Shown piece after piece: positions 6,380 to 41,681 of a stretch of DNA of 42,205 nt. The notes under the pieces were generated by a model. The model was not told the DNA's origin. It was given only the letters and a program-made list of their open reading frames with translations, and did not search any database. Origin of the DNA: a virus. Location: positions 1 through 42,205 of IMG/VR virus record IMGVR_UViG_3300009610_000048; one strand, given 5' to 3'. Every line of letters begins with the position of its first letter. Position 1 is the stretch's first letter. A program made the position numbers and the translations under genes.

Positions 6380-7824
6380 CAGGCCGACGCCTCATAGGTC
6401 ACCGTGAAGATGATGTCTGTGGTATTAGACATATCGGCCTGCACCAGTGCCGTCATACCCGTGGCGGGCACCTTGAGGCCGTAGAGCGTGGCCTTGGTGG
6501 TGGCGGTCTGCACGAGCATCGACAGACTGCCGAACGTCGCGGTCATCGCCGCGAAATACCCGATCGACCCACCTGAGTTGACGACGTTATGCGCCGTGAA
6601 TGGGAAGCCGTCGATCTGCGCGCTGGTGGTAATGGTGCCCAACCCAGACAGCGTGACTCGGCCCCAGAGCGTGACGTGCTTCCCAATCTTGACGTATCGC
6701 CCAGATTGCACTGAGTAGGTTTGCCCGCTCGCCCCGCCAGACCCGGTGATCGTGGGTGTCCAACTGCCTTCCTCGTAGTCGTCCAGTGTGTTGACATTCG
6801 TGGAGGCGTTCTGTGACGCAGGGAACTTCACCTGCCCATAGCCCAATGTCACCAGACCAGACGTGCCGTCCACGGTGATCGAATGGCCACCATCGCCCCG
6901 ACTCAGTGCGACATAGGAATTGGCGACGTTACCGGCCTGTAATGCCGCAACTCCTGGCGGGGATGCTTCATTGCCATACAGGATGATTCGTGAGCCACGG
7001 TCAAGGCCGCTATCTCCACCAGCGACAATCTCAATGTGCTTGGTGTCGGTGCCGTCGATGGTGTCGGTCTTGATGATGGGTGTGGCGTTACTGAGCGTGA
7101 TCGTGCTGCCAAACGTCCAGAACCCAAGGATGGTCTCGTTGGTGAGCTTGCGTGCGTATTCGTCTGTCGCTGACCCACCTGACGCCCCGCTACCAAACCC
7201 ACTAGAGTCGGTATCCCCCTGCCGCGTGTGGTAGGTCGGGCTGTCCGCAAGATGGAACTGCAGATCACTAAAGAGCTTGTCAGCCATCAAGTGATAGCGG
7301 TCAGAGAGGTCCGTCTTCTCTTTCCGCAGCAGTTCTTCGGAGATGACGTTAAACGTTAAAATGTCATGGAAAGAAGCTGGGAATGCCGGCACGTCCGTGG
7401 TTTCCAGATCCGACAGTGAGGTCCATCCATCGGCCTGCAGCGCGTAGGCCTCATCAGGGACGGTGTCCGTGAGGATCACCACCGATGTGCCCAGTACGTT
7501 CTTGGTCGCCCATTTCGTGGGCGCAGACGATCCAGGCTGCAGCGTGCGGAGTTCATGCAGGCTGCGCTCGAATAACGGGTTAATCGCGGTCGCCGTGGTG
7601 ACATCGATGACACGGTCAATTTTCTCGATCGAGGAGAAGGTGACTTCGCGCACCCCCACCGTCATGGCGACGGCGCGCGTGACGAATCGCGTGGTAGTCA
7701 TCCCCAGCTTGGAGGTGATCCGCCGATAGTGCTGGTTCACGGCGACGCCAACGCGGTCTTCGGCCTCATCGCTCTGCAGGTTGCAGCGCGTCATCACCGC
7801 GTCAACGATTTCGTCGAATGTCAC
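6379..7824 (-). CDS. Head-tail adaptor fused to a fibre-type C-terminal domain
   Basis: 481 aa, GTG start overlapping the upstream stop as GTGA. Residues 1-~205 look like a podoviral adaptor (P22 gp4/connector type): MTFDEIVDAVMTRCNLQSDE, INPLFERSLHEL, and PAFPASFHDILTFNVISEEL followed by a helix. A Gly/Ser linker (GSGASGG, ~211-217) leads into a different kind of sequence: TLSNATPIIKTDTIDG, then NTLDDYEEGSWTPTI at ~345-359 and SGRYVKIGKHVTLWGRVTL. That is the pattern of receptor-binding fibre or baseplate-associated domains. I see no internal stop or frameshift signal at the junction. It probably builds the connector ring and also displays or anchors fibre material. Confidence 0.75.
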   Translation of the reverse strand: MTFDEIVDAVMTRCNLQSDEAEDRVGVAVNQHYRRITSKLGMTTTRFVTRAVAMTVGVREVTFSSIEKIDRVIDVTTATAINPLFERSLHELRTLQPGSSAPTKWATKNVLGTSVVILTDTVPDEAYALQADGWTSLSDLETTDVPAFPASFHDILTFNVISEELLRKEKTDLSDRYHLMADKLFSDLQFHLADSPTYHTRQGDTDSSGFGSGASGGSATDEYARKLTNETILGFWTFGSTITLSNATPIIKTDTIDGTDTKHIEIVAGGDSGLDRGSRIILYGNEASPPGVAALQAGNVANSYVALSRGDGGHSITVDGTSGLVTLGYGQVKFPASQNASTNVNTLDDYEEGSWTPTITGSGGASGQTYSVQSGRYVKIGKHVTLWGRVTLSGLGTITTSAQIDGFPFTAHNVVNSGGSIGYFAAMTATFGSLSMLVQTATTKATLYGLKVPATGMTALVQADMSNTTDIIFTVTYEASA

Positions 7825-8186
7825 CGAACCGCCCTTCGCCCTGCTAACCGATCCTGCTCACGTAGTTCAACGCGCTCTCGACGGGCGCGCTGGGCCTCAC
7901 TGGATTTCAGCCACTCCCCACGCTCAATCGCTGGCTTGGTCTTGTCTTCCGTGTGGATGTCTGTCCACGGCACCAACCCTCGGCGCGCACACTCATCGCG
8001 AATCTCCGTCCGCGAGTAGTAGGTGCGTGGCGTGCCGTCCTCATTACACAGACCGTGCTCGATGACCAGCCCGCCCTCGATGGAGTCCTGCCACACCGCA
8101 GCAGACCGCCTGCGTGCTTCCAGCGGGCAGAGCCTGTGTCCGTGCTCACCAACGTCCAACGGCTTGTAACAGCGTTCACAGGTCAT
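7821..8186 (-). CDS. Small Cys-containing protein of the portal region
   Basis: 121 aa. It begins MTCERCYKPL and continues to RLCPLEARRR, giving C3-x2-C6 and a later Cys/His set typical of a small zinc-binding knuckle. The C-terminus is highly charged (RARRERVELREQDR). It is the third of three consecutive genes that start with Met-Thr-Cys, all translationally coupled after portal. Function unknown. Confidence 0.65.
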   Translation of the reverse strand: MTCERCYKPLDVGEHGHRLCPLEARRRSAAVWQDSIEGGLVIEHGLCNEDGTPRTYYSRTEIRDECARRGLVPWTDIHTEDKTKPAIERGEWLKSSEAQRARRERVELREQDRLAGRRAVR

Positions 8187-12200: not shown

Positions 12201-13142
12201 TTACGTGAAGAGCCGCCCACCACGAGACCGATTCTTCGTGGCGAACTGCAAAATGGAGTAGGTCTTCATGTTCATCATCAGCGCGTTGACGTGCTCAATC
12301 GCCGACCGGCGTTTGCGCCATGCGCTTCTAACGACATACAACTTCGTGTCGCGGGTGTTGAACATCCACGCGCTGTCACTCGTGTACGCCGAGGACCAGA
12401 GATACGGGATGGTCTTGAACTGCACTTCGGTGAATCCACCGCTCGCCTTGTTCACGTTGGCGTAGCGCTGATTCGGGGTCAGGGCCGCTTCAAATGCGGC
12501 GTGCATCGTCGCAGACGAGACGATGATGTTCGGCTTACGACCGCTCGAGCCCTTCGCGCAGGAGTTGTACAGGGTCGTGTAGTCCGCGAGCAGGGTTGCG
12601 CCCGTGTCGTTGTTCCAGTCCTTGAACTGTGACTTCCACCACGTTTCCGTGCCGCTGACCACACCATGCACAGTGCCGGTGCCGTCCGTGGTAAACAGGG
12701 TGGGAAGCGACTCGAGGCCATCCGTGGCAGTCGCGGCGAAGAACGCATCCTCAATCACGTCGTCGTGCGAGGTCAGGGCGTTGTCCGTCAGCTCCGACAC
12801 GAGGTCGATGCGCTGCTCACGTCCGGTGTTCAGATCCTCGTCCCTGAACGACCAATTGATCGGAGCCTGGACAATCGCCCAATCCGCCTGGACCATCGTC
12901 AGGACTTCGGTTTTCGTGGTACTGGTAAGCGTGGTATCAGTGGCCAGCGTGCCGGCCGCTGGATTCGCGCGGTAGTTCAGGATGAGCTTAAGATCGGTGC
13001 CACCGGAGACCCGCTCGAGTCCACCGGTTTCCTCCATCCCCATGAGGAATGAGCTGTCCGACCACTGGTCGGCGCTCTTGTTGCGGTCGAGTACGGTCTT
13101 ATCGTACGTCGCCGCCAGATGCTGTTCAAAGCTAAGAGCCAT
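12201..13142 (-). CDS. Major capsid protein
   Basis: 313 aa. The start ATG has a strong Shine-Dalgarno (GGAGGGGGCCG-ATG). The sequence MALSFEQHLAATYDKTVLDR, the beta/alpha mix, the SELTDNALTSHDDVIEDAFF helix (spine-helix position) and the C-terminal TKLYVVRSAWRKRRSAIEHV fit an HK97-fold coat protein. The scaffold-like gene lies upstream and a decoration-like gene downstream. The 5' leader contains a branched RNA structure. High confidence from order (TerL, scaffold, capsid, portal) and pattern. Confidence 0.82.
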   Translation of the reverse strand: MALSFEQHLAATYDKTVLDRNKSADQWSDSSFLMGMEETGGLERVSGGTDLKLILNYRANPAAGTLATDTTLTSTTKTEVLTMVQADWAIVQAPINWSFRDEDLNTGREQRIDLVSELTDNALTSHDDVIEDAFFAATATDGLESLPTLFTTDGTGTVHGVVSGTETWWKSQFKDWNNDTGATLLADYTTLYNSCAKGSSGRKPNIIVSSATMHAAFEAALTPNQRYANVNKASGGFTEVQFKTIPYLWSSAYTSDSAWMFNTRDTKLYVVRSAWRKRRSAIEHVNALMMNMKTYSILQFATKNRSRGGRLFT

Positions 13143-14550: not shown

Positions 14551-14745
14551 TTACTTCTTCTCCTGTGGTTGCCAGCGATATAACTCGTCTGGTGTTGGAT
14601 AGCGTTGGCTCACGGTCCCAACTGCCAAGCTTGGGTCGCCTTCTACTGGTATCCATGTGCCAGCCTTGGCCTCCATCGCCTCGTAGAGCGCCTTCGTGGA
14701 AATCCTGTTTGGGTCATACCAGACAAGCGGCTCAAGCGTGAACAT
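14551..14745 (-). CDS. Small protein between terminase and scaffold
   Basis: 64 aa: MFTLEPLVWYDPNRISTKAL, then a helical YEAMEAKAG, then WIPVEGDPSLAVGTVSQR and a basic end. The start overlaps the last base of the TerL stop, and the stop abuts the scaffold start. Tight packing in the operon supports a real gene. No family recognised. Confidence 0.6.
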   Translation of the reverse strand: MFTLEPLVWYDPNRISTKALYEAMEAKAGTWIPVEGDPSLAVGTVSQRYPTPDELYRWQPQEKK

Positions 14746-16373
14746 CAGCGCCGGCTGTACCTTCGGTATCCATTCGCGATCCTTTGTTGACGGGCGTCTT
14801 CATTCGCCCAGGTTTTCCAGATGGGTTCCTTCTTGCCTTCGATGGCCTGCGCCACTGTCAAGACTCCTGAGCTGATGCCGAAATAGCCCATGTTCATCGG
14901 CCAATGGTCGAATTTGTGATCCGCCATCTTCCTCTCATTCTTCTCGTCCCACCGCATTTTGGGGAGGTATCTGGCCAAGAGCGGGCACCCGGGCTCGTAA
15001 ATCTGACACCTCGGTACCCCAGGTTCGATTTCCTCCCCCAAGAGGCTATGAATGGCGTCGGCAATCATCACGCGGTTATTGATGCTGGGCTCACAGGGGA
15101 CGCCACGAGCCTCCATCTTGTCTTGCACCAGTACCGCATCCTTGCCGTCCTGGTAACTCAGATCAGGGTCGATGTAGGTCATGGAGCAGGGAATGTCTCC
15201 GAAGAGTTCTTTATGGGTCTCGACCATTTTTGTCGCCGCATCTTCAGCGATAGTCCTGAACCATGTCTCTTCGTGGACAGCAAATACTCGACGTCCCACG
15301 ACAACCCACCACATCGCCACAGCAGGGTCAGGGTTGTACCCATGGTCGTAAGTACGATAGACCTGTATCCACGGAACTTTGAGTAATGGAATCCCATCGA
15401 TAATCGGCAGCTCCTGAATGTAGTGGTACGGCCGGCCCAACAGAGAATCCGGCAGGGCTTGCGCTCGAGGCTGGCCACGGTGGGAGGTCAACAAGGCTTT
15501 ATCGACGGTCTTGTACACGTCGAAGAGGGTGCGAGCCTCCATCCGCACGCCATCAATCCACGCCGCCCGGTACACCGCGGGAATCGGCCCCAGAGACTTC
15601 AGATACTCATCCGGGTCCAGGGATGGGTTGTCCCGAAGGTTAATCGGGACGTGCTCCCAATCCTCAGGGTCGTAGTACTCGTTCCCTTCCACGTCCTTGT
15701 CGATGAAGTGATGGTCTAGTTCATCGATGCTCGCTCCGGTTGGATTTCCTGACAGGACAATCAGGGGAAAGTACGGCTGGGTACCGTCCGCGCGCTTGGA
15801 CACACGAACACTCGGCATCATGAGGGTCAGGTACTCAAATTCAATCTGGGGAGCCTCATCCACAAACAGAATCCCCGCCTCAGACCCGACGACCTTCTCG
15901 ACGTCCCGAAATTCCTCGCATTGACGGAAATACCCCCGACTCCCATTCGGATACCGACACAGCGGTACCGGACTCGAGACATACTCCCCGTCCAGCTTCC
16001 GCATCTCATCATGGAGGAACTGCAGATGATTCGAGTGCAGATCAGGGTTGTTCCTACGAACGACTACGTACCGTAAACCAGGGTGCGCCAAGGCCATTCC
16101 ATGCAGAAAGGCCCGCATCATCACTGATTTCCCGCCTCCACGGTTCCCTCGGAGGAAATACTTACTCGGCCCAGTACCCAGTACCAGCCTTCGCCCCAGC
16201 TTCGCCATGATCTGGGCCTGATGCGGATGGGGGTCGAAAAACACCTCCCCGTCATTCAGGGTAAAGGCTGATGGGCTACTCACACTCAGGACCGCGCTGT
16301 CATAAATGCGGATGCGTGGGGTGCTGACAGACCAATGGCTGCGTGGACGGCGCATCCACCATCGGCCCCTCAT
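14745..16373 (-). CDS. terL: Terminase large subunit
   Basis: 542 aa. Walker A is RGNRGGGKS (residues 75-83) and Walker B with the catalytic Glu is GILFVDEA (167-174). These form the ATPase that drives packaging through the portal. The nuclease domain shows the three acidic sites expected of the RNase H-like fold: TYDHGYNPDP with Asp343, YIDPDLSY with Asp402, and FDHWPMN with Asp489. The true start is uncertain: an in-frame ATG at 16355 (MRRPRSH) has GAGGGG ten bases upstream and may be used instead. The 5' end overlaps the preceding small gene. Confidence 0.92.
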   Translation of the reverse strand: MRGRWWMRRPRSHWSVSTPRIRIYDSAVLSVSSPSAFTLNDGEVFFDPHPHQAQIMAKLGRRLVLGTGPSKYFLRGNRGGGKSVMMRAFLHGMALAHPGLRYVVVRRNNPDLHSNHLQFLHDEMRKLDGEYVSSPVPLCRYPNGSRGYFRQCEEFRDVEKVVGSEAGILFVDEAPQIEFEYLTLMMPSVRVSKRADGTQPYFPLIVLSGNPTGASIDELDHHFIDKDVEGNEYYDPEDWEHVPINLRDNPSLDPDEYLKSLGPIPAVYRAAWIDGVRMEARTLFDVYKTVDKALLTSHRGQPRAQALPDSLLGRPYHYIQELPIIDGIPLLKVPWIQVYRTYDHGYNPDPAVAMWWVVVGRRVFAVHEETWFRTIAEDAATKMVETHKELFGDIPCSMTYIDPDLSYQDGKDAVLVQDKMEARGVPCEPSINNRVMIADAIHSLLGEEIEPGVPRCQIYEPGCPLLARYLPKMRWDEKNERKMADHKFDHWPMNMGYFGISSGVLTVAQAIEGKKEPIWKTWANEDARQQRIANGYRRYSRR

Positions 16374-18411: not shown

Positions 18412-18435
18412 TCTATGCCTGCACAGAGGCATAGA
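18412..18435 (+). other. Perfect 9-bp hairpin in the leader of the 18475 gene
   Basis: TCTATGCCT (18412-18420) pairs with AGGCATAGA (18427-18435) around a 6-nt loop. It lies 39 nt before the next ATG. No T-tract follows, so it is not an intrinsic terminator. It could be an mRNA-stability or regulatory hairpin, or an operator at the DNA level. Confidence 0.5.
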
Positions 18436-18474
18436 GCGGAACGCATTAACCGCCTTAAATTGAGGTATTTGACC

Positions 18475-18717
18475 ATGACGATCGACTACACACAACACGC
18501 AATCACGCGCACAAGACAAGCGGCCACTACCGCGCAGTATGTGGTCAATGGTAACCGCAAATCATCCACGGTGACCCTCTACTGCGACACCCTCGAGCAA
18601 GTGTTCAGTGACATCGACCTGTTGTTCCGTACAGGCTGTCTGTCGGCATCGTACGCACCGAACGACCAGAGGCCAGTCGCGCCACCGTCCGACAGCGTTT
18701 TGGAGATAGAACCCTAG
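18475..18717 (+). CDS. Small protein of unknown function, rightward unit
   Basis: 80 aa from ATG 18475 with GAGG 10 bases upstream. Longer in-frame starts run back to 18415, but they would read through the hairpin. Begins MTIDYTQHAITRTRQAATTA; has a central beta part (SSTVTLYCDTLEQVFSDIDL) and a Pro-rich end. No family recognised. Confidence 0.55.
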   Translation: MTIDYTQHAITRTRQAATTAQYVVNGNRKSSTVTLYCDTLEQVFSDIDLLFRTGCLSASYAPNDQRPVAPPSDSVLEIEP

Positions 18718-18768
18718 TCCGTAGCACTGCTTACACATTTACCTGAGAGAGTAGACAGGAGATACCCC

Positions 18769-19173
18769 ATGACCGCTACACTTCGTCAATTCATCAACTC
18801 GCACAACGTCAAGATGACCGCAGAATGGGCCGATTCTAATCCCAACATGACCGACATGGTCTCGGGCTCGTCTCACTGGCGCTGCACGCTGAAGGTCGGT
18901 CGCCGTCAAATGACCGTGTTCTTCTCAATGGGGCCAGCCTTGTGCCGCGAACCGACAGCCGAAGATGTCTTGGATTGCGTGGCGTCTGACTGTGCCGGCT
19001 TCGTTAATGCTCAGAGCTTCGAGGAATGGGCCAGCGAATACGGCTTCGACCCTGACTCGCGTAAGGCTGAGAAGACCTACAAGGTCATCGAGAAGCAGGC
19101 CGCCAAACTCCGTCAGTTGCTCTACACCGAAGACGCCTACAATGCGCTGCTGTTTGAGACGGAGCGCAACTAA
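18769..19173 (+). CDS. Conserved phage protein of unknown function
   Basis: 134 aa with an AGGAG ribosome site before the ATG. It has the pattern of a widespread small phage protein: an N-terminal LRQFINSHNVKMTAEWADSN, a SSHWRCTLKVGRRQMTVFFS strand block, EPTAEDVLDCVASDCAGF, and FEEWASEYGFDPDSRKAEKT. The last part is helical. The family has no known role as far as I know. Being small, acidic and in a short early-type operon, it may act on host functions, but this is inference. Confidence 0.72.
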   Translation: MTATLRQFINSHNVKMTAEWADSNPNMTDMVSGSSHWRCTLKVGRRQMTVFFSMGPALCREPTAEDVLDCVASDCAGFVNAQSFEEWASEYGFDPDSRKAEKTYKVIEKQAAKLRQLLYTEDAYNALLFETERN

Positions 19174-19174
19174 C

Positions 19175-19336
19175 GTGCTCTCATACATCCTCCGCGATAT
19201 CAACCCTGACCTCTGGGCGCGTGTCAAAACGCGCTCAGCCGTAGACCAGATGCCCGTCAAAGCCGTGATCTTCAAGCTGCTCGAGATGTATGCCGAGTTC
19301 CGGATCAACATTCAGGCTGAGGGAGACTCCAAATGA
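19175..19336 (+). CDS. Ribbon-helix-helix-like small protein
   Basis: 53 aa from a GTG just after the previous stop. The sequence runs SYILRDINPDLWARVKTRSA, then VDQMPVKAVIFKLLEMY. This is a beta strand, a helix and a second helix ending in LLEMY, the pattern of Arc/ParG-type ribbon-helix-helix DNA-binding proteins. A longer frame exists upstream, but it overlaps the previous gene in another frame. Its ATGA overlap with the next gene supports this reading. It probably acts as a small transcriptional regulator or antitoxin-like protein. Confidence 0.65.
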   Translation: MLSYILRDINPDLWARVKTRSAVDQMPVKAVIFKLLEMYAEFRINIQAEGDSK

Positions 19337-19626
19337 CTACCGACTTTAATTTCGTGGAATGGTCGAAGATGCGTGAACAACAGCGAGTAGACCGCAAGAT
19401 TGAGTTGCGCGAAGCACTGGCTCATGGTCTCGCAGTGTGGCATGGCGGTTCAGTGTGGAGCACTGCCGGCGTTATCAGTCCAGCAGGACGGTTCCACTCC
19501 ACGTCCGTACATGCTCACGCGGTATTCATTGAGCCGTATCAGTCCGATCCTGCTTACCTCGCTGAGCACATCGAAAGCCGTGAGCATGGATTCGGCTTTG
19601 AAACGCGCATTATCCGCTGCGCCTAA
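19333..19626 (+). CDS. Small protein of unknown function, rightward unit
   Basis: 97 aa; the ATG overlaps the stop of the ribbon-helix-helix gene (ATGA). N-terminal helix (FVEWSKMREQQRVDRKIELR), then a beta-rich half (AVWHGGSVWSTAGVISP, HAVFIEP) ending in FGFETRIIRCA. No family recognised; position suggests co-expression with the upstream regulator. Confidence 0.6.
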   Translation: MTTDFNFVEWSKMREQQRVDRKIELREALAHGLAVWHGGSVWSTAGVISPAGRFHSTSVHAHAVFIEPYQSDPAYLAEHIESREHGFGFETRIIRCA

Positions 19627-19698
19627 CTTCATCTATTTGATGCCTGAATCCTCGGCCCAGCAAGTTTTTAACCCCGGTTATTTGACTGGAGACTAACC

Positions 19699-24863: not shown

Positions 24864-25181
24864 CGCGAAAACATCATCGGCACATTTCATGAAGGCCGCC
24901 GATCGCAGCTTAATACTCGACCTATCCGATCGGTCTATCCATCCCTTAGCCAACTGCTCCAACTCGGACCTGAGACGCACCAGGGCGGCTTCTGCGGCAT
25001 CGCGTTGCGCTCTGACGCTGTCTATGCCGTCCCAGTCCTGTTCGGCTCTGGTGTCTGGTGTCACGTCATCCAGATGATTCAATGGCGTCCTGCCCATCAT
25101 TTCCCCAACCCCATCAAAATAGCCCTGCTGACCTGGGCTCTGCGACTCTGGGCTGACCGCTGCTCTCTGGTCATGGCTCAA
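24840..25181 (-). CDS. Coiled-coil protein, paralogue of the 24604 gene
   Basis: 113 aa from a TTG at 25181; an ATG at 25100 (MMGRTP) with GGGG upstream is an alternative. The N-terminus is low complexity (SPESQSPGQQGYFDGV). The C-terminal part is a helix, RAQRDAAEAALVRLRSELEQ, then MKCADDVFAALARGGE. The shared end with the downstream gene is noted there. It overlaps the methyltransferase stop. Confidence 0.55.
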   Translation of the reverse strand: MSHDQRAAVSPESQSPGQQGYFDGVGEMMGRTPLNHLDDVTPDTRAEQDWDGIDSVRAQRDAAEAALVRLRSELEQLAKGWIDRSDRSSIKLRSAAFMKCADDVFAALARGGE

Positions 25182-26004
25182 TATCTATTGTCAACTGGTG
25201 ACTAGGCTTCTGTAGAGTCTGGCCAGCAAATAAATCTAGCGCCCCTTGAGACAGCCTGCGCGCGGCTACTTCGCAGTACTTCTCCTCGCGCTCGATCAGG
25301 ATGCACTTACGGCCTAATCGCTTGGCGGCGACCGCTGTTGTGCCGCTTCCACCGAATGGGTCTAGGATCAGGTCGCCTTCGTCGGTGAACTGAGAAACTA
25401 TGACCTCTAATAATGCTGACGGCTTTGGTGTTGGATGATTTGCGTCCACGCGCTCTTTGCTTCCATTGACTGGCCTGTCAATTACCCATGCAGCCGGTTT
25501 ACCGCCGCCATTCCATCGGCTACGCCCCTTGGCATGCACAATTTCACATGCCTCCCATCCAGTACCTGGACGATCACCGCTAAACTGCGGAGTGCAGGCA
25601 GGTGACACCCATGCACCCATACGGATATGACGCAGGCCTCCGCCCTCTAGTGCGATACGCCATGACGTGAGGCTCTCAGCGTCGCAGAACACGATCCCCC
25701 ATCTTCTGGCTAATCGTCCTATCTCCGCGCCAAGCAGCCACCGTAGTTCGTCATTGACACCGGGATACCCAAGATCGCGACGTTGCGCCTTGCCGATGCC
25801 GTCACCGGCTCCCTTCGACGTGTTCACCACGAGTATGGAATACGGCGGGTCAGTAATCACATGATCCACGGCATCCAGCGTGGGTAATATCTCGCGGCAA
25901 TCACCGTGAATTAGACAAACCGAGTCGTCTACGTAGTATGGCTTTATCCCTTGCGGCGGCCACAAACTTGACATGGTTTCGTCGGGCGAGTTCTTTGAAC
26001 TCAT
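25171..26004 (-). CDS. DNA methyltransferase (N6-adenine or N4-cytosine type)
   Basis: 277 aa. Motif IV DPPY is at residues 52-55. The AdoMet-binding motif I is GDLILDPFGGSGTTAVAAKR at ~210-229, after the HPTPKPSALLEVIVSQF block. This order (IV before I) is that of beta-type enzymes. It lacks a clear target-recognition partner, so it is an orphan methyltransferase, likely protecting phage DNA from restriction. No restriction endonuclease lies beside it; the neighbours are an HNH protein and zinc ribbons. The start could also be ATG 25974. Confidence 0.9.
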   Translation of the reverse strand: MSSKNSPDETMSSLWPPQGIKPYYVDDSVCLIHGDCREILPTLDAVDHVITDPPYSILVVNTSKGAGDGIGKAQRRDLGYPGVNDELRWLLGAEIGRLARRWGIVFCDAESLTSWRIALEGGGLRHIRMGAWVSPACTPQFSGDRPGTGWEACEIVHAKGRSRWNGGGKPAAWVIDRPVNGSKERVDANHPTPKPSALLEVIVSQFTDEGDLILDPFGGSGTTAVAAKRLGRKCILIEREEKYCEVAARRLSQGALDLFAGQTLQKPSHQLTIDIEP

Positions 26005-31472: not shown

Positions 31473-31733
31473 TTACGCCTTGTCCAAGTTACGCTTACGG
31501 GTGCCAGCCAAGACAGGCTCTGCTGATGTGCCAACCTCGTCGGCCATCCACGCCTCAACTGGGATACCTGTCATGCGCTCGATCTGGACAGCGTTGTCCA
31601 GTCCCGGTGTCCGGCGTCCGGACATCAGGTTGGAGATGTACGCTTCGTCCCACTCGAAATAGGCCGCGACGAGCCGCTGATTAAAGCCTCGGAGGCCCAT
31701 CCACTGTTTAAACTGCTCTGGTCCCGACTTCAT
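31473..31733 (-). CDS. Cro/CI-type HTH regulator, first gene of the leftward operon
   Basis: 86 aa from ATG 31733. That start is set by the promoter: a TTGACA-17-TGTAAT box ends 7 nt before it. The HTH is FNQRLVAAYFEWDEAYISNL followed by MSGRRTPGLDNAVQIERMTG. The C-terminus is short and lacks an oligomerisation or peptidase domain, as in Cro. Being the first gene under the strongest promoter of the region, it is likely a Cro-like repressor. Confidence 0.72.
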   Translation of the reverse strand: MKSGPEQFKQWMGLRGFNQRLVAAYFEWDEAYISNLMSGRRTPGLDNAVQIERMTGIPVEAWMADEVGTSAEPVLAGTRKRNLDKA

Positions 31734-31740
31734 GAGAAGC

Positions 31741-31769
31741 ATTACAATACGAGTTGGCGCGGGTGTCAA
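31741..31769 (-). promoter_or_regulatory. Strong sigma70 promoter driving a leaderless leftward mRNA
   Basis: TTGACA (31769-31764), 17-bp spacer, TGTAAT (31746-31741), one mismatch from full consensus. Seven bases then lead to the ATG at 31733, so the transcript should begin at or one base before the start codon. Confidence 0.75.
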
Positions 31770-31818
31770 CTTAATTGTTGAGGCAAAAAACTCATGCGTT
31801 GGCACTCTGCCATGCGTT
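31764..31818. promoter_or_regulatory. Operator region of the divergent switch
   Basis: Contains TCAAC-TTAATT-GTTGA overlapping the leftward -35, an exact 8-bp direct repeat CATGCGTT (31793-31800 and 31811-31818) with an 18-bp period, and the perfect dyad TGGCA-CTC-TGCCA (31800-31812). A weak rightward promoter may use TTGGCA (31799-31804) with TAATAG further on. These are candidate binding sites for the two flanking HTH proteins. Confidence 0.55.
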
Positions 31819-31840
31819 TCGGTAATAGGATCAGCTAGTG

Positions 31841-32359
31841 ATGCGCGCCAATGACCTGATGAAGCACAACGTGCTGGCGCTGCTCAAAGGCAGGCGTCAG
31901 ACGCAGCGCGATCTGGCCCAGTGGTGTCGGCGCTCAGATGCGTGGATAGGGAAAATACTCAAGGAGGACCGGCGCGAGTTCCCGATGAAGTACTGGGACA
32001 GGATTGCCGATTTCTTTGGCATCGCTGTCTATCAACTCATCCAGCCAGGAATCTCGGCCCTGACTGAGCGCCGGAAGCGTGAACGCAGGGATGGTGTGGA
32101 CAGGCGGCTCAGAAACATTGCCGCAGAACCTCACCGAGCGGCCATATCGGACCAGTCGCTCATACGAGAAGTGCTGAATCTCGGCTCCGACGACCGCGTA
32201 GAGCTCGTGCGCCTACTCGCGCTGGCGAAGCGTCGTGGCATCGACGTGCCCAATACAAGATCGACTGGACCTGATCAGGGCTCATCCGATCTATCAACTG
32301 ATGCAGGGTCCGTCTCTCAGAAACAGCGACGGACGAAGTTCCGCGAGCCTTCGACGTAA
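31841..32359 (+). CDS. Helix-turn-helix repressor-like protein (CI-like)
   Basis: 172 aa from ATG 31841 (a GTG lies one codon upstream). The N-terminus carries an HTH: LMKHNVLALLKGRRQTQRDL, AQWCRRSDAWIGKILKEDRR, then YWDRIADFFGIAVYQL. The remainder is basic (TERRKRERRDGVDRR) with a Ser/Thr-rich tail. It lacks the S24 peptidase motif of lambda CI, so any induction would differ. It is divergent from the Cro-like gene, which is the usual place of a CI-type repressor. No ribosome site is obvious. Confidence 0.68.
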   Translation: MRANDLMKHNVLALLKGRRQTQRDLAQWCRRSDAWIGKILKEDRREFPMKYWDRIADFFGIAVYQLIQPGISALTERRKRERRDGVDRRLRNIAAEPHRAAISDQSLIREVLNLGSDDRVELVRLLALAKRRGIDVPNTRSTGPDQGSSDLSTDAGSVSQKQRRTKFREPST

Positions 32360-32529: not shown

Positions 32530-33477
32530 CTACCTAGGCAGTGGTAGAAAATCTTCAAGGAGCAGGCCAGCCGATATTTTGGTCTCAGGCGTGGTGTGGG
32601 TCTCGGTGAAGGCTCCAGCACTGATCCAGGTGCGTGGGCCATCTGGCAGCAGGGCACGAGCAATCAGGTTGTCAATCATCGGGCCGAAGTGGATAGTGGA
32701 ACTGGTCTCGCTGTTTAACTGCCACTGCTCAGCCTTGACGATGACGTAGTAGTAGGCTGGAGTTTCGATGGCCAGGATGATGTCCGAATCTGGGTGGGCA
32801 TCGCCCCAATTTGGGTGGACGTAGAGCATGGCATCGACCAGGACAGACTTGCCTGCCCACCAGCCCTGTAAGGTCACTCCCATTCTGGAGATGCCGGCTA
32901 GGGCGGTCTCATCTGACCTGACCTCGTTATAGATTCCCCTTATGTAGATGCTCAGATCATTCGTGTTTGGTAATGGCCCCCCACCAGAACTGGCGTGATC
33001 CATGATCGAGAACCACGTCCACACATTGTCTACACACGGGTGCCTGAAGTTCCAGAAGTCCGTATGGAGCCTCGCTGCCCACGCGCCCTGGTAGGGCTCG
33101 TAGGTCAGGGACATTGGCCCACCGACGTTAATCGGCAGGCTCTGGGCGTTCGTCCCTACGCAGGCCTCGCCTAGCGTGTCCTCAGACTGCACCCCGACCA
33201 GCCAGTGCCGTGTAGGGTTACTGCTAGAGCAGCCAGCGGTGTTGCTGAAGTAGTTAGGCTGGGAGGGGTCTAGGCTGGTGACGCACTGGGTAAAGCCTGG
33301 ACGCCATGACACTTGAGCATCGGCCACAGGAACGGCCAAGAGTGCTAGTATCAGTAGTGTCAGGCCGAAGGCGCAGCCAAGCTTATCCCTGCGAGTGGGG
33401 CACTGCTCGCATAGGTGCACGAATCGGCGGAGTGGATAAACGCCGAGGGATCTAGTGGTCGGCCTGACAGCTTTCAC
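32530..33477 (-). CDS. Exported protein of unknown function
   Basis: 315 aa from GTG 33477, overlapping the upstream stop (GTGA). A ~35-residue basic head precedes a strong hydrophobic signal segment, GLTLLILALLAVPVADAQ. The mature domain is beta-rich with aromatic and Cys residues (NYFSNTAGCSSSNPTRHWL, YEPYQGAWAARLHTDFW, RHPCVDNVWTWFSIMDH). The pattern suggests a lectin-like or jelly-roll fold in the periplasm or on the surface. Neighbouring lysis-type membrane genes suggest late expression. Confidence 0.65.
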   Translation of the reverse strand: MKAVRPTTRSLGVYPLRRFVHLCEQCPTRRDKLGCAFGLTLLILALLAVPVADAQVSWRPGFTQCVTSLDPSQPNYFSNTAGCSSSNPTRHWLVGVQSEDTLGEACVGTNAQSLPINVGGPMSLTYEPYQGAWAARLHTDFWNFRHPCVDNVWTWFSIMDHASSGGGPLPNTNDLSIYIRGIYNEVRSDETALAGISRMGVTLQGWWAGKSVLVDAMLYVHPNWGDAHPDSDIILAIETPAYYYVIVKAEQWQLNSETSSTIHFGPMIDNLIARALLPDGPRTWISAGAFTETHTTPETKISAGLLLEDFLPLPR

Positions 33478-34254: not shown

Positions 34255-34406
34255 CATTCCTCCATCGGCTTCGCGACTACCCAACTCTGCCCGCAAGACT
34301 TGCACGTATATTCAATGAACCGCTTGCGGTCCCAGCGCTCGATCATGTCTGGCGCATCCTCGAGGCAATGCCGGTTCTGGCAGATCGGCTCTGGCGATTT
34401 CTTCAC
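34254..34406 (-). CDS. Small zinc-ribbon protein
   Basis: 50 aa from GTG 34406, overlapping the preceding stop, with GAGG upstream. An earlier GTG at 34439 lies inside the previous gene. PICQNRHCLEDAP then EYTCKSCGQSW: four Cys in two C-x2/4-C pairs. Sits between the peptidase-like and holin-like genes. Function unknown. Confidence 0.55.
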   Translation of the reverse strand: MKKSPEPICQNRHCLEDAPDMIERWDRKRFIEYTCKSCGQSWVVAKPMEE

Positions 34407-34843
34407 GACACCCTCACCAGTAATGATCCAGGCTTCCACTTGTTGTGCGTGAAGTAGTCTTCTGGATCCAGCCAGCCCTCGCCGTTGCCTTCCATGATTC
34501 GCCCTGCCCAGAGGTAGACCGCGTGCGCGTCCTTCTTGGTTTCCACGTACAGCACGCCCGTGGCTTCCTCGACGTCGTATTCACCGCGCCTGATAGACTT
34601 GACCTTGCCGCCGAGCATCATTGCCGCCTGCTTCATGCGCTTGAACTGCATCCCGCTATGCAGGACTTCCGGGCACACAAGTAGGCAGGCGGCTAGCGAT
34701 TCCTCGTAGGTCACACCGAACATCATGGCCAGCGATGCCACCGCGCAATCGGCATTCACAGAGTTCTGGCGTACGAACTTAAAGAACGCCGGCTGGAGCA
34801 GTGGCGCAGGTTCGTAGTCCGGCTTGTCGGTCCAACTACTCAT
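34403..34843 (-). CDS. Peptidase C39-like cysteine protease fold
   Basis: 146 aa. FVRQNSVNADCAVASLAMMF gives the Gln26 and catalytic-type Cys33 of papain-like/C39 enzymes. HAVYLWAGRIMEGNGEGWLD gives His107 and a candidate third residue (Asp126). No signal peptide. C39-like proteins in phages can be structural proteases or peptidoglycan enzymes. Here it lies next to the lysis-type membrane genes, so it may be a lysis peptidase; no other endolysin candidate is in view. Confidence 0.6.
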   Translation of the reverse strand: MSSWTDKPDYEPAPLLQPAFFKFVRQNSVNADCAVASLAMMFGVTYEESLAACLLVCPEVLHSGMQFKRMKQAAMMLGGKVKSIRRGEYDVEEATGVLYVETKKDAHAVYLWAGRIMEGNGEGWLDPEDYFTHNKWKPGSLLVRVS

Positions 34844-36545: not shown

Positions 36546-36815
36546 CTATTGTTTCGCTGGTGCCTTCAGTTTAGCCTGCTGGTCAACTGCCGCCTGATAC
36601 GCCTTGGCTTCCTCTGTTTTCCTGAGATATTCCAGGCGAATCATCACCACCTGAGCCGCTAGTTTGTCCACCTGTTCTCTGCACGCGGCCAATTCGTTAG
36701 CTACTGGTGTCTCCTGTGCATAGACAGAAGAGGCAAGCAAGACGAACAGAACTGTGATACCGTTGCGAACCTTGGAGGCGACTATGCGACGAATGACACT
36801 CGCGCTACTCTGCAT
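36546..36815 (-). CDS. Signal-anchored periplasmic coiled-coil protein (spanin-like)
   Basis: 89 aa from ATG 36815 (36821 possible). Residues ~19-33 are a signal or anchor segment (GITVLFVLLASSVYA), then QETPVANELAACREQVDKLA and a charged coiled coil (RLEYLRKTEEAKAYQAAVD). A membrane anchor and periplasmic coiled coil are the layout of an inner-membrane spanin. Its 5' end overlaps the divergent PEP-CTERM gene by 32 nt, and its coding region contains that gene's ribosome site. Confidence 0.58.
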   Translation of the reverse strand: MQSSASVIRRIVASKVRNGITVLFVLLASSVYAQETPVANELAACREQVDKLAAQVVMIRLEYLRKTEEAKAYQAAVDQQAKLKAPAKQ

Positions 36816-37446
36816 CTGCATCCCATCTGCGGCCTTCGCCGCACCTATCACGTTCAACTTCGCCGCTGACAACGTGTCTGGGTGGTACACCTTCGAGACC
36901 CAGACTCCAGGCGTCCGCAACCGCTACGAGGGTGAAGATGTCTACTGGGACCGCGACGGAGCCATGACCTACCTGAACGCCATCACCGAGTTCGGCATTG
37001 AGCTGGGCCAGGGTGATGCGTTCATCTCTGGGCGTGGCGGCGATCTGACCCTTGCCGTGAACCGAGGCGAACTCAGCGAATCGTCGTATTCCGCTCTGTT
37101 GCCGATTGGTCAGAACTGGCGGCTGGCCCTGAGCATCTGGAGCCCGACGAATGGCAGCTTCCTCGCCAGCGAATCCCTTGACGCGGTCCCAGACCTCACC
37201 GGCTATGACATCATCAGCGAAGTGGTCATGTTCGATGCGCGCCGGCCAGCCGAAACCGCAAGCTTTCATCAGATGTCCAGTTTCAGCCGTGCTGGGGCCA
37301 CGGACACCGCAGAACTCACCAGCGCGAGCACACTGGCAGTCGCCGCACCAACCAAGGTGCCAGAGCCGTCCACGATGCTGCTCATGGGATTCGGACTCAT
37401 CGCCGCTTTTTCAAGGGGATGTAGGTCACGTATTTATGGACGGTAA
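36784..37446 (+). CDS. Exported protein with C-terminal PEP-CTERM sorting signal
   Basis: 220 aa from ATG 36784, with GGAGG five bases upstream. Residues 1-19 are a Sec signal peptide (MRRMTLALLCICIPSAAFA). The mature part is beta-rich, of the kind seen in secreted PEP-CTERM proteins (PITFNFAADNVSGWYTFETQ, WRLALSIWSP). The C-terminus is VPEPS at 192-196, a hydrophobic segment (TMLLMGFGLIAAF), then RGCRSRIYGR. That is the tripartite PEP-CTERM signal recognised by EpsH-type exosortases, which cut near the PEP motif and release or anchor the protein at the envelope. It is the only plus-strand gene between 32.4 kb and the right edge. Its last 50 nt overlap the 3' end of the converging 998-aa gene. 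Confidence 0.85.
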   Translation: MRRMTLALLCICIPSAAFAAPITFNFAADNVSGWYTFETQTPGVRNRYEGEDVYWDRDGAMTYLNAITEFGIELGQGDAFISGRGGDLTLAVNRGELSESSYSALLPIGQNWRLALSIWSPTNGSFLASESLDAVPDLTGYDIISEVVMFDARRPAETASFHQMSSFSRAGATDTAELTSASTLAVAAPTKVPEPSTMLLMGFGLIAAFSRGCRSRIYGR

Positions 37447-40393
37447 GCAGTGACGTGCCGGTCCCGTCTGCGCCGTCCATGCAGGAAATCTCAATGTCGT
37501 TGAGTCCTGACACTGCTCCGAACTCGTCGCGATACTGAAGCAGGCCGACACGGGCCGACCATGAGTCGGTCCCTGTCGCCACAACCTGAGTACCTCCGAT
37601 GACTGGGTTTGGGTCAGTCACATTAGTCAACAGCACGCTCGTGCATTGAGCCGCCGTGAAGGTGCCCATCAGGTCTACGAGTCGGCCGCGCTGTGTCCAC
37701 GTCGCGTCAGCCGTGGGGTAGGTGAACGTCGCCACCACACTTGACGCAGGCACGTAGGAGATGACTTCGGAGACGGTCGTGCTGTTACTCGCCGCGTCAG
37801 TGAACGTGACCTGAACCGTATTGGTGCCAGAGATCAGGTCGATTCCTCCGCCTGGAATCGTCCATGTCCCGCTCGTGGACGGGAACGCCGAATTAGGCGT
37901 CACCGTCCCGTTCTCACTGGGGTTCTCCGCGACTCTCCATGTGCCTGTTGCGACACCCACGGCATCACTGAACGTGCCAGCCATCGATGTGTATGGAGTC
38001 GCCGCGACTTGCAAGACGCCAGTAGGTGTCGTAATCGCGGCTACTGGGCTGATGATGTCACCACCGCCAGCCTGCGCAGTCGCGACGAAGTTCGAAAACC
38101 CAGTAGCGGTGCCCCATGCGCCAGCCCACGCATAGCCACTGGTGAACGAGCTGGACCCGTCAGTGGCGCACGAGCCCTGCACCACACCGTTTTTCAGTAG
38201 GCAATATTCCTGACCAATCACTCGACACGACGCCACATCACCAGACACCCACGGGGTGGTGGTCATATCGATCGTGGCGAAGGTCGTTCGATTCGTGTTG
38301 ATGAACTTGGCTATGTAACTAATCGGGTTCTGTGCCGTGCAACCCATCCCTGAGTAGTTTGACCCAGACACAGACCCGCGCACGCCTTGGTAGATCCAGA
38401 CGTTATCCGTGGGTGTCACGTCGATGGTGACACTCGCCATCTGATCGTTATTGATCGCGCTGTTGAAGTAGAACAGGTTGCGCGCGTTCGTAGAACTCCG
38501 AAGGTGGTTGTTCTCCCACAACAGCGAGCCGACCATGTTGACCCAGCAATGGGGATTAGGTGTAGCCCATGACCCGCTGAGCGTGAACGTATCTAATAGA
38601 CCCGTGCAGGTACTGGACGCACGCAACACACTGACAGGGATGATGGCCGTATCCGTGTCGTCATCGATGGACGTAACCGTAATCGCGCTCACGCTCATCG
38701 ACGGCAGATCCGGTGTGCAGGCCCATGCGGTTGGCGTCCCGGTATTCGTAATGCTGCCGTCCTTGTCAGACGCGCACACCGTGCCGGTCACTGTGCCGTC
38801 AGAGTCCGCTGCGGTTCCAGCAAGGGCAATTGTGGCCGATGACGTGTAGTGAGTAGCCGCAGATGACGGCGTGGTCAACGCAGACGTGGGTGGCTCATTC
38901 GGCGTGACCGGCGCACTCCCAAGAGACCCGTCAATAGACGCCTCATTGATGTAGGTATCAAAGAGCGCACACGCCGTGTCGTCAGGCACCCCCTGAGAGG
39001 CAGGGTTCCCAGAGTAACACTCGCCAGTAAACTGAGCCCTCCACAGGGTCATGATGCGGTTGTCGCCCCAGTTGTTGTTGCGATTCAGCAGATACTGGAA
39101 ATACGCTGAATTGCCGTGCTCCTCCTCTAACTGCATCTCCGACAAGATCACGGCTATTCCCACCGGCCCCTCCACAGGCATATAGGCATAGGTGGGATTC
39201 CAGACCGCAGAGCACTTCGGGACATTCGACCAGTCCGCACACCATTGCGCCCGATTAAGCATCTCCTGTGTGAAGTCCACGCATAAGTGGGTGGCCGTGC
39301 CGTTATGACCACACGATGCTTGCAGCGTGGTATCGATGATGCCCTGCGTGATGGTGGCATACTGGAGATTCGTGCAGAACTTATTTCCAGACACGGCATT
39401 CGGAGCGATAGACATCATGTCTGCGTTGTCCAAGAGGGACGCCCCGAACACGATGAGTTCCTTCGCCGGCCAGCACCATCCAGCGATGCCGATGAAATAC
39501 TGTCCCGCGCGATACTGACTCCAGAGATCAATGGCCATCTGTGACATGCGGATGGCCAGTACCTCTTTTTGGCCGTCAGTCGCTGATTGACTGAGCGCAG
39601 CCATCGCATTCAGCGTGGCCCCCTGGATCTGTCGGCCATAGGCGATGATGGGTGTGTTGCACCAGCTACTGGGCATCGCATCCGTCCACCCATCCGCGCC
39701 CTTGCCAGCCAGAATCAGGAGCGGACCACGGAACCAGCAATTCGACTCAATCGTGGCGAGGCTAGAAATGGCCCCAGAGTTGGTGTAGTCGTGCAGGACG
39801 TTGTAACGAATCTGGCTCTTGGTCGTGATGCCACTCGGAAATGATTTATCGGAGCCAGCCCATGGTGGACGCCACGCGCAGCCATTGCCACACGCTGGCG
39901 CAGCAGAGATGATGGTGACAACATCCGCGTATTGCATACACGCGACCGAGTTCGATCCTGGCGCAATTGGGCATGAACCAGTCGGATTATTCGAGGTCGC
40001 AAACACAATCGATGACCCCGCCGCAATCGTTGCAGACGGGAACGAATCACACACGTTTAACGTGTCCGTGTAGGCGTACGACAGCGTCCGCGAATCAAAC
40101 CCCTGTAACACTTCACCGGATTTCGCAGAGGTCAACGTTGTGGGCGCATGGGGCACTGGGTTGATCTGACACCCATTCGTGAACGGCGTGACTGTGTCCG
40201 CGCCTGTGCGCGTAACAATAGTGGTCGTGCCTCCCCCGACCACCACAAACGGGTCACCATTGGCGTACGTGCCTTGCGTTGGTGAGCCCGAGAACGTCAC
40301 CGAGCCACCAGAGATCGGCAGCGTAACAACGATGTCAGCCGACGCAGGAACGGCCCACACCAACAGCGCGAGAATAATTACAACTATCTGCAT
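37397..40393 (-). CDS. Large exported multidomain protein
   Basis: 998 aa. Residues 1-19 are a signal peptide (MQIVVIILALLVWAVPASA). Residues ~195-490 are helical with repeated Trp/Cys (FIGIAGWCWPAKELIVFGAS, LSEMQLEEEHGNSAYFQYLL), possibly an alpha/alpha-barrel as in polysaccharide lyases. Residues ~600-765 resemble a ConA-like lectin domain (DTFTLSGSWATPNPHCWVNM ... SGYAWAGAWGTATGFSNFVA). Ig-like modules lie at ~505-590, ~775-875 and ~880-990 (ITTPTGVLQVAATPY, TNTVQVTFTDAASNST). It is probably surface-located and carbohydrate-interacting. It starts inside the end of the upstream gene by 10 nt. Function unknown. Confidence 0.75.
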   Translation of the reverse strand: MQIVVIILALLVWAVPASADIVVTLPISGGSVTFSGSPTQGTYANGDPFVVVGGGTTTIVTRTGADTVTPFTNGCQINPVPHAPTTLTSAKSGEVLQGFDSRTLSYAYTDTLNVCDSFPSATIAAGSSIVFATSNNPTGSCPIAPGSNSVACMQYADVVTIISAAPACGNGCAWRPPWAGSDKSFPSGITTKSQIRYNVLHDYTNSGAISSLATIESNCWFRGPLLILAGKGADGWTDAMPSSWCNTPIIAYGRQIQGATLNAMAALSQSATDGQKEVLAIRMSQMAIDLWSQYRAGQYFIGIAGWCWPAKELIVFGASLLDNADMMSIAPNAVSGNKFCTNLQYATITQGIIDTTLQASCGHNGTATHLCVDFTQEMLNRAQWCADWSNVPKCSAVWNPTYAYMPVEGPVGIAVILSEMQLEEEHGNSAYFQYLLNRNNNWGDNRIMTLWRAQFTGECYSGNPASQGVPDDTACALFDTYINEASIDGSLGSAPVTPNEPPTSALTTPSSAATHYTSSATIALAGTAADSDGTVTGTVCASDKDGSITNTGTPTAWACTPDLPSMSVSAITVTSIDDDTDTAIIPVSVLRASSTCTGLLDTFTLSGSWATPNPHCWVNMVGSLLWENNHLRSSTNARNLFYFNSAINNDQMASVTIDVTPTDNVWIYQGVRGSVSGSNYSGMGCTAQNPISYIAKFINTNRTTFATIDMTTTPWVSGDVASCRVIGQEYCLLKNGVVQGSCATDGSSSFTSGYAWAGAWGTATGFSNFVATAQAGGGDIISPVAAITTPTGVLQVAATPYTSMAGTFSDAVGVATGTWRVAENPSENGTVTPNSAFPSTSGTWTIPGGGIDLISGTNTVQVTFTDAASNSTTVSEVISYVPASSVVATFTYPTADATWTQRGRLVDLMGTFTAAQCTSVLLTNVTDPNPVIGGTQVVATGTDSWSARVGLLQYRDEFGAVSGLNDIEISCMDGADGTGTSLLTVHKYVTYIPLKKRR

Positions 40394-41148
40394 CTGCCCA
40401 CCCCAAGAAGAAGACCGTCACCGCAATTCGTGCCTGCTGCGGCGGATTGACTAATGGCGAAATGCACCGCCGCCCGCCCGTTCGATGTCACAGAAAACCC
40501 GATAGACCTGCTCCCTTGACCTGCCGTGGTCTCGAACACAGACCCTGCCACGACACTGCCTAAATCTTGTGCAGGCCCAACCGTAGAATTAGCCCCAGCA
40601 CCAATCGCGGACGATGATCCAGAAAACGCACAGGCGAACCGCATGCTGTTCGTGCCTGGGGAGCTATCATCCACGCTCTGTTCAGCAAGCGCACCGTCCT
40701 CGCTCAATAGAACAGGCGCGTTTGTGATCTGGGTGTTCCCGCCAGCAGTGACCCATCCCAAATACGCATACAGCAGATTGGCGTTGTTGTTTCTCGTCAC
40801 CCTGACGGTTTGGGTGCCGGTTGGTACCCCAGACCCAAGGAAATACAACTTCGCGAATCCGGGTTCTGACACCGTGTCTGTAGCAGTCGCACTTGCGACT
40901 GCGGGAATATTGGGGCCGCTGACGAAATCCACGCTCGTCGCATCGACCGTGGCACTTGATAAGCCGATCACGCACACAAACACCCCTTGTGACGTGCCTA
41001 TATCTGTGGCGGCAAAATCGAAAGACGCCTCTGACGCAGACGCCGTGGCCGCTACCGTGTGAGACTCGATAATCCCTATGGCGACTACTTGCGCGAAAGC
41101 AGGCCACGCCCACAGCGCCAGACACGCGGTCAGGAGTAGTCGGCGCAT
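40384..41148 (-). CDS. Exported beta-rich protein
   Basis: 254 aa; signal peptide MRRLLLTACLALWAWPAFAQ. Mature part is Ala/Ser/Thr-rich with beta strands (EASFDFAATDIGTSQGVFVC, GTQTVRVTRNNNANLLYAYL, RSIGFSVTSNGRAAVHFAIS) and three or four Cys. It reads as a jelly-roll or galactose-binding-like domain. The start overlaps the upstream stop (TGATG). Unknown role. Confidence 0.72.
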   Translation of the reverse strand: MRRLLLTACLALWAWPAFAQVVAIGIIESHTVAATASASEASFDFAATDIGTSQGVFVCVIGLSSATVDATSVDFVSGPNIPAVASATATDTVSEPGFAKLYFLGSGVPTGTQTVRVTRNNNANLLYAYLGWVTAGGNTQITNAPVLLSEDGALAEQSVDDSSPGTNSMRFACAFSGSSSAIGAGANSTVGPAQDLGSVVAGSVFETTAGQGSRSIGFSVTSNGRAAVHFAISQSAAAGTNCGDGLLLGVGRCR

Positions 41149-41672
41149 CAGAATTTGCCGTTCATCGCCGCGCGGGTAGGACCATCGGCCGCGTTGTAGT
41201 CCGCGTTAATCTCGGTGCGAAGCGTGCCAATCTGCGTATTGAGCGCGGTAATGGCCGTCTGGAGCGCACCTGATGGTGTGACACCCAGCGCCGTGAACCG
41301 CGCCAACTTGTTCTGATTGAGTTCCAATAGGGCAATCTTCGCGCCCCACGCATTGGCCGCAATCTCCACAGCCGTGAGCACGGTCGGATCGATTGGGACA
41401 ACAGTCTGCCCGACCTGCACCGCTGCCAGCTTAGACACCGCAACAGACGCATTCAGGTTCAGGAATTGCTGCCCAACCCATGTTCGGAAGCCGACAAAGG
41501 TGGACGACTGAGAGACGGTATAGGTCAGTCGTGCTTCTGCCTCACCAACCCCATTGAACGCGACGGTGATAATCTTCCCGTCGTTACCGACAATCTGATG
41601 CGTGGTGTAGTCGGCAGACGCGATGCGGCCGACGAGCAGGAACAGGACAGCAAGTACGAGAATCCGCTTCAT
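41148..41672 (-). CDS. Exported protein of unknown function
   Basis: 174 aa. The ATG at 41672 is chosen because AGGAG lies 6 nt before it; an ATG two codons upstream touches the ribosome site. Signal peptide MKRILVLAVLFLLVGRIASA. The mature part has beta (KIITVAFNGVGEAEARLTYT) then helical regions (LLELNQNKLARFTALG, QTAITALNTQIGTLRTEINA). No Cys. Function unknown. Confidence 0.72.
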   Translation of the reverse strand: MKRILVLAVLFLLVGRIASADYTTHQIVGNDGKIITVAFNGVGEAEARLTYTVSQSSTFVGFRTWVGQQFLNLNASVAVSKLAAVQVGQTVVPIDPTVLTAVEIAANAWGAKIALLELNQNKLARFTALGVTPSGALQTAITALNTQIGTLRTEINADYNAADGPTRAAMNGKF

Positions 41673-41681
41673 CGACATCTC

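Follow-up and report, generated by a model that had tools for sequence, protein, structure and literature searches.

Environmental Gram-negative bacteria commonly possess exosortase systems, and the role of most exosortase substrates is unclear. The bacterial substrates of the PEP-CTERM/exosortase (EpsH) system (TIGR02595, PF07589; PMC1569441) feature a signal peptide, a variable body, a PEP motif, a hydrophobic segment and a basic end. They are exported by Sec, held by their C-terminal helix and processed by the exosortase (Haft 2006, PMC1569441; PMC12188702), and they are gone from the exoproteome when the exosortase is lost (PMC12188702). The flocculation protein PepA of Zoogloea and Aquincola (NF033554) binds exopolysaccharide into flocs (PMC9850573). 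Phage, prophage and virus are not mentioned in the text of Haft 2006 (PMC1569441), and the PEP-CTERM genes of PMC12642866 are host genes. The nearest parallel found on the phage side is a prophage LPXTG protein of Streptococcus agalactiae (PMC6546898), which likewise bears a sorting tag of the host at its C-terminus; it depends on a sortase and a Gram-positive wall, whereas the present case concerns an exosortase and a Gram-negative envelope. A common purpose is also conceivable with the Ltp lipoprotein of phage TP-J34 (PMC3952083) and with SieA of P22 (PMC10883804), which are reported to be phage envelope proteins expressed in lysogens. They provide precedents for superinfection exclusion with other anchors, as these two proteins are held by lipoprotein or membrane anchoring and not through an exosortase.

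The window analysed here, 42,205 nucleotides of the virus record IMGVR_UViG_3300009610_000048, encodes a protein in which all the elements of an EpsH substrate are present. Unlike the bacterial substrates, its gene is phage-encoded, occurs in a single copy and lies in a record without an exosortase. The sorting tail is shared with PepA; the body is not. The initial annotation knew of no described system of this kind, and the titles and abstracts of the open PMC literature, a scope that largely leaves aside subscription papers and preprints, likewise contained no phage-encoded exosortase substrate.

Sequence features of the tagged protein

The gene for a protein of 220 residues at 36784–37446 (+) is defined by its translation, by profile matches to PF07589 and TIGR02595 and by a codon model. 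Its product begins with a predicted Sec signal peptide, MRRMTLALLCICIPSAAFA (36784–36840, +), for which an n-region, an h-region and a cleavage site between AFA and A were assigned by visual inspection and with a rough script. It continues with APITF into a mature domain of ~172 residues (36841–37356, +) and ends in KVPEPSTMLLMGFGLIAAFSRGCRSRIYGR before the stop codon. The complete tail, VPEPSTMLLMGFGLIAAFSRGCRSRIYGR (37357–37443, +), is composed of the motif VPEPST (37357–37374), the hydrophobic segment TMLLMGFGLIAAF (37372–37410) and the basic end SRGCRSRIYGR (37411–37443). It reached 30.3 bits against PF07589 (curated cut-off 20.7, E=4e-7) and 22.3 bits against TIGR02595 (curated cut-off 16). 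The Sec signal and the complete PEP-CTERM tail read from the letters alone in the initial annotation both hold, the former as a prediction. A profile search found this single PEP-CTERM match in the whole record (E=2.8e-9 for the record) and none over the cut-off in 14 control genomes. The ribosome site that had been claimed is present as a Shine-Dalgarno sequence GGAGG (36774–36778, +), 5 nt upstream of the ATG. In the codon model, which was built from genes of the same phage, the frame of 36784–37446 was preferred over the five other frames; the tail alone, short and atypical for such a model, scored -0.12 and was still the best of six. Taken at the level of sequence, these features support a phage-encoded protein with predicted signals for both Sec and exosortase.

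Relatives of the whole protein were detected neither in IMG/VR, phage records, genome contigs, PHROGs and PDB nor, at E<0.01, in plasmids. The exact pattern of the tail was absent from the genome contigs searched. A tblastn search with the tail only gave no matches in phage records, a result that is not evidence of absence since low-complexity filtering possibly masks such queries. The mature domain is an orphan in all libraries and collections searched. Compared with the PEP-CTERM proteins of other phages, this domain gave a best E of 0.009 over 41 residues, and a kinship with them was rejected. PepA (NF033554) was among the best NCBIfam matches of the 220-residue protein; an identity with it was discarded at 27 bits against a cut-off of 80, and no match was left once the tail was removed. 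A single-sequence AF2 model of the protein was uninformative (pLDDT 35).

The virus record and its lineage

Its gene content identifies the record as that of a phage, with a major capsid protein (12201–13142, −; phrog_9953, E=7e-18), a terminase large subunit (TerL; 14745–16373, −; phrog_979, E=1.4e-12), a DNA methyltransferase of the adenine/cytosine type (25171–26004, PHROGs match) and a pair of HTH genes of the cI/cro kind. The capsid aligned with 18 relatives in IMG/VR at 51–66% identity, TerL is 54–57% identical to its counterparts, and the order of the structural core is common to five of the largest capsid relatives. Neither the capsid nor a 632-residue protein matched any INPHARED phage record, so that the lineage is undescribed there. 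The similarities of the methyltransferase and of the 632-residue protein were uninformative on the host. Contigs L138–L154 represent this undescribed lineage with the capsid and terminase of the window; some carry integrases and none a PEP-CTERM gene.

The cI-like HTH regulator (31838–32359, +) is divergent from the Cro-like HTH_3 protein (31473–31805, −; PF01381, 26.3 bits against 23), and both are ~57% identical to their counterparts in relative G022. The arrangement resembles a cro/cI switch and is conserved in G022 and G026. Tyrosine integrases are present in three relatives, by which the lineage includes temperate phages; in the window record no integrase was found. An exosortase gene was not found in the record either, and the exosortase of the host would therefore be needed. 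A group of small plus-strand ORFs with phage-like codon use is situated in the early region (18415–19696, +).

Genomic neighbourhood

Right of 20 kb nearly all genes lie on the minus strand, the main exceptions being the PEP-CTERM gene and the cI-like gene. The PEP-CTERM gene is thus opposite to its neighbours. On its left, a small gene with a signal peptide followed by a charged helix (36546–36815, −; start codon uncertain) is divergent from it with a short 5′ overlap. On its right, the gene of a secreted 998-residue protein without detected relatives, possibly a fibre or surface protein (37397–40393, −), is convergent with it, and the 3′ ends of the two overlap by 50 bp. The gene had been described as lying amid late genes. 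This does not hold: it lies outside the conserved late operon, in an accessory zone (32.5–42.2 kb) that has no homologue in the relatives.

A zone of this kind leaves room for host DNA that flanks a prophage or was joined to the phage in a chimeric assembly, as would also fit a linear record without end repeats. We nevertheless regard a bacterial origin of the right 10 kb as quite improbable. No recognisable bacterial gene was detected among the tested proteins of the zone, which contains a weak match to a phage exonuclease family, and all of its genes except the PEP-CTERM gene keep the strand of the phage. Read on a circle, the zone is located between the tail genes and the repressor, a place occupied in relatives by lysis and integrase genes (both in G013); the contig ends offer no in-frame join, so that circularity is something we infer. 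The tetranucleotide pattern of the zone correlates with that of the core at 0.68, against at most 0.57 in 28 other loci of like G+C, a measure to be read with the caveat that host DNA can resemble its prophage. Circular placement and tetranucleotide agreement together lead us to take the zone for accessory DNA of the phage, in line with the earlier claim that the gene is not a host fragment at a contig edge.

Apparent Sec-type signal peptides were also noticed on neighbouring orphans (37397–40393, 40384–41148, 41148–41678, 3–761, 32530–33477 and 36546–36815, all −); such a grouping of seemingly secreted phage proteins close to the tail/lysis zone is unusual. A protein of 146 residues (34403–34843, −) with weak, below cut-off similarity to C39 peptidases is encoded near small membrane proteins, by a possible lysis gene.

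A probable cargo gene of the phage

Among 23 records related through their capsid, of which 18 are close relatives, none had a PEP-CTERM gene. Many of these records are short (among the 18, only about five exceed 20 kb and several are fragments), and the absence is therefore firm only for the long ones (G012, G013, G017, G022). With this restriction, the gene is sporadic among its relatives and looks like cargo (a 'moron'). It has its own ribosome site on the opposite strand, with no promoter or terminator above chance, and a single strand switch is shared by this gene and the repressor-like gene, which speaks for the same reading. We consider it probable (roughly 0.55) that the gene is phage cargo of the moron or lysogenic-conversion type, whose product would use the PEP-CTERM/exosortase route of the host.

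The same lack of a homologue in 18 relatives, within an accessory zone of orphans, could also mean that a host gene was captured recently and is carried as a passenger without benefit to the phage. Bacteria with an exosortase system average more than 10 such genes (Haft 2006, PMC1569441), which makes capture easy, and the 50-bp overlap of the basic end with the 998-residue gene could mark a recombination junction. A mere passenger is unlikely, however, given the intact frame, the ribosome site and a codon use that fits the phage. Two further results speak against it, namely the tagged genes of unrelated phages and, for one phage family, the purifying selection seen in the tail.

PEP-CTERM genes in other viruses

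A first pattern scan of IMG/VR yielded 10 contigs, all with genuine C-terminal PEP-CTERM tails. A looser scan was added, and the two together cover at least 121 loci. All 126 matches listed, from these at least 121 loci, are C-terminal PEP-CTERM tails in frame, located 23–47 residues from the stop where this distance is listed; a chance origin of the matches was rejected on this ground. Some of the tagged contigs will hold host flanks, but several are plainly phage. Among the matches listed, PEP-CTERM genes recur near phage genes in about seven unrelated lineages, whose distinctness was judged by differing gene sets and not by a tree. The viral-database search that the initial annotation had called for thus turned out positive.

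In one lineage (L003) the tagged gene is placed between a terminase and a phage-like gene of 607 codons and, as in the window, on the opposite strand. Elsewhere it occurs with a portal (phrog_156) and a capsid (phrog_334) gene (L036, L058, L063), beside a weak terminase match (L042, L035, L045), beside a gp32-like protein (L015, where it is a ssDNA-binding protein, and L006), with an integrase and DnaB (L021), beside an exonuclease (L085) or, in a 228-kb record with a clamp loader, as two tagged genes (L016). An exosortase adjoins the tagged gene in L008. Similarly tagged genes in unrelated viruses suggest that host exosortase machinery was borrowed repeatedly.

The family of L036, a phage family different from that of the window, allowed an estimate of selection. 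Here, in about a dozen contigs, the tagged gene has a fixed position between portal/methyltransferase and scaffold/capsid genes (scaffold being a label given here). Among seven members the dN/dS of the tail lay below that of the whole ORF in most or all pairs, with about 0–0.15 against 0.13–0.26 in close pairs and 0.06–0.34 against 0.37–0.57 in the noisier distant pairs; these are rough values from ~25 codons per tail and from pairs that are not independent. The phages of this family thus appear to keep the tag by selection. An AF2 model of an L036-family protein (pLDDT 69) featured a beta-rich body and a C-terminal helix, and its fold had no significant counterpart in PDB or among viral models.

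These results also bear on the idea that the C-terminal segment serves as an inner-membrane anchor only, for example of a periplasmic exclusion or lysis-timing protein, and is not processed by an exosortase. A hydrophobic segment followed by basic residues is enough to anchor a protein, and small membrane and secreted proteins are found among the neighbours. For a mere anchor, however, VPEPS would be superfluous, and in the L036 family VPEPxTLxLLGxGL is nearly invariant and the dN/dS of the tail is low. We therefore give simple anchoring only a slight probability and retain exosortase processing as part of the cargo reading.

Proposed function

The bacterial PEP-CTERM route being known, it is simplest to suppose that the protein of the phage follows it by means of the exosortase of the host. 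The gene, whose strand is opposite to that of the lytic operons, would be translated from a ribosome site of its own, and its product would presumably be exported by Sec, as in the bacterial family. A host exosortase may then recognise the PEP motif and cleave the tail, upon which the body would pass to the outer surface or into the exopolysaccharide, a step established only for the bacterial relatives. Our guess is that the displayed protein could alter the surface of the infected or lysogenic cell to the benefit of the phage. It would do so most likely either by hindering the adsorption of further phages or by altering matrix or aggregation, two routes between which we make no choice. For effects on matrix or aggregation there are precedents among the bacterial PEP-CTERM proteins, which act on matrix binding (PMC9850573). 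The initial annotation had suggested an envelope protein placed by the host exosortase; this part gains from the two sorting signals and from the recurrence in unrelated phages, whereas the role in adsorption or superinfection is a guess among several.

More tentatively, we propose that the uptake and retention of PEP-CTERM proteins, repeated among phages of exosortase-bearing Gram-negative bacteria, may amount to a general strategy, of which the gene of the window would be one example. Through the host exosortase, a protein made by the phage would cover the infected cell or its matrix and block competing phages or reshape the exopolysaccharide. If it is borne out that phages carry exosortase substrates and preserve them, the sorted surface layer would count in the conflict between phage and host. 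This would represent a new route of cell-surface remodelling by phages and provide compact natural exosortase substrates for study. The tag would further hint at the host, which should be found among exosortase-bearing bacteria.

Two observations on individual tagged genes are added. The two PEP-CTERM genes of L016 (9689–10351 and 11359–12015) differ from each other and are separated by ~1 kb. In L021, the PEP-CTERM protein encoded at 7300–8067 (−) has a C39-like cysteine peptidase domain (PF13529, 46 bits) and is a candidate for a phage surface protease.
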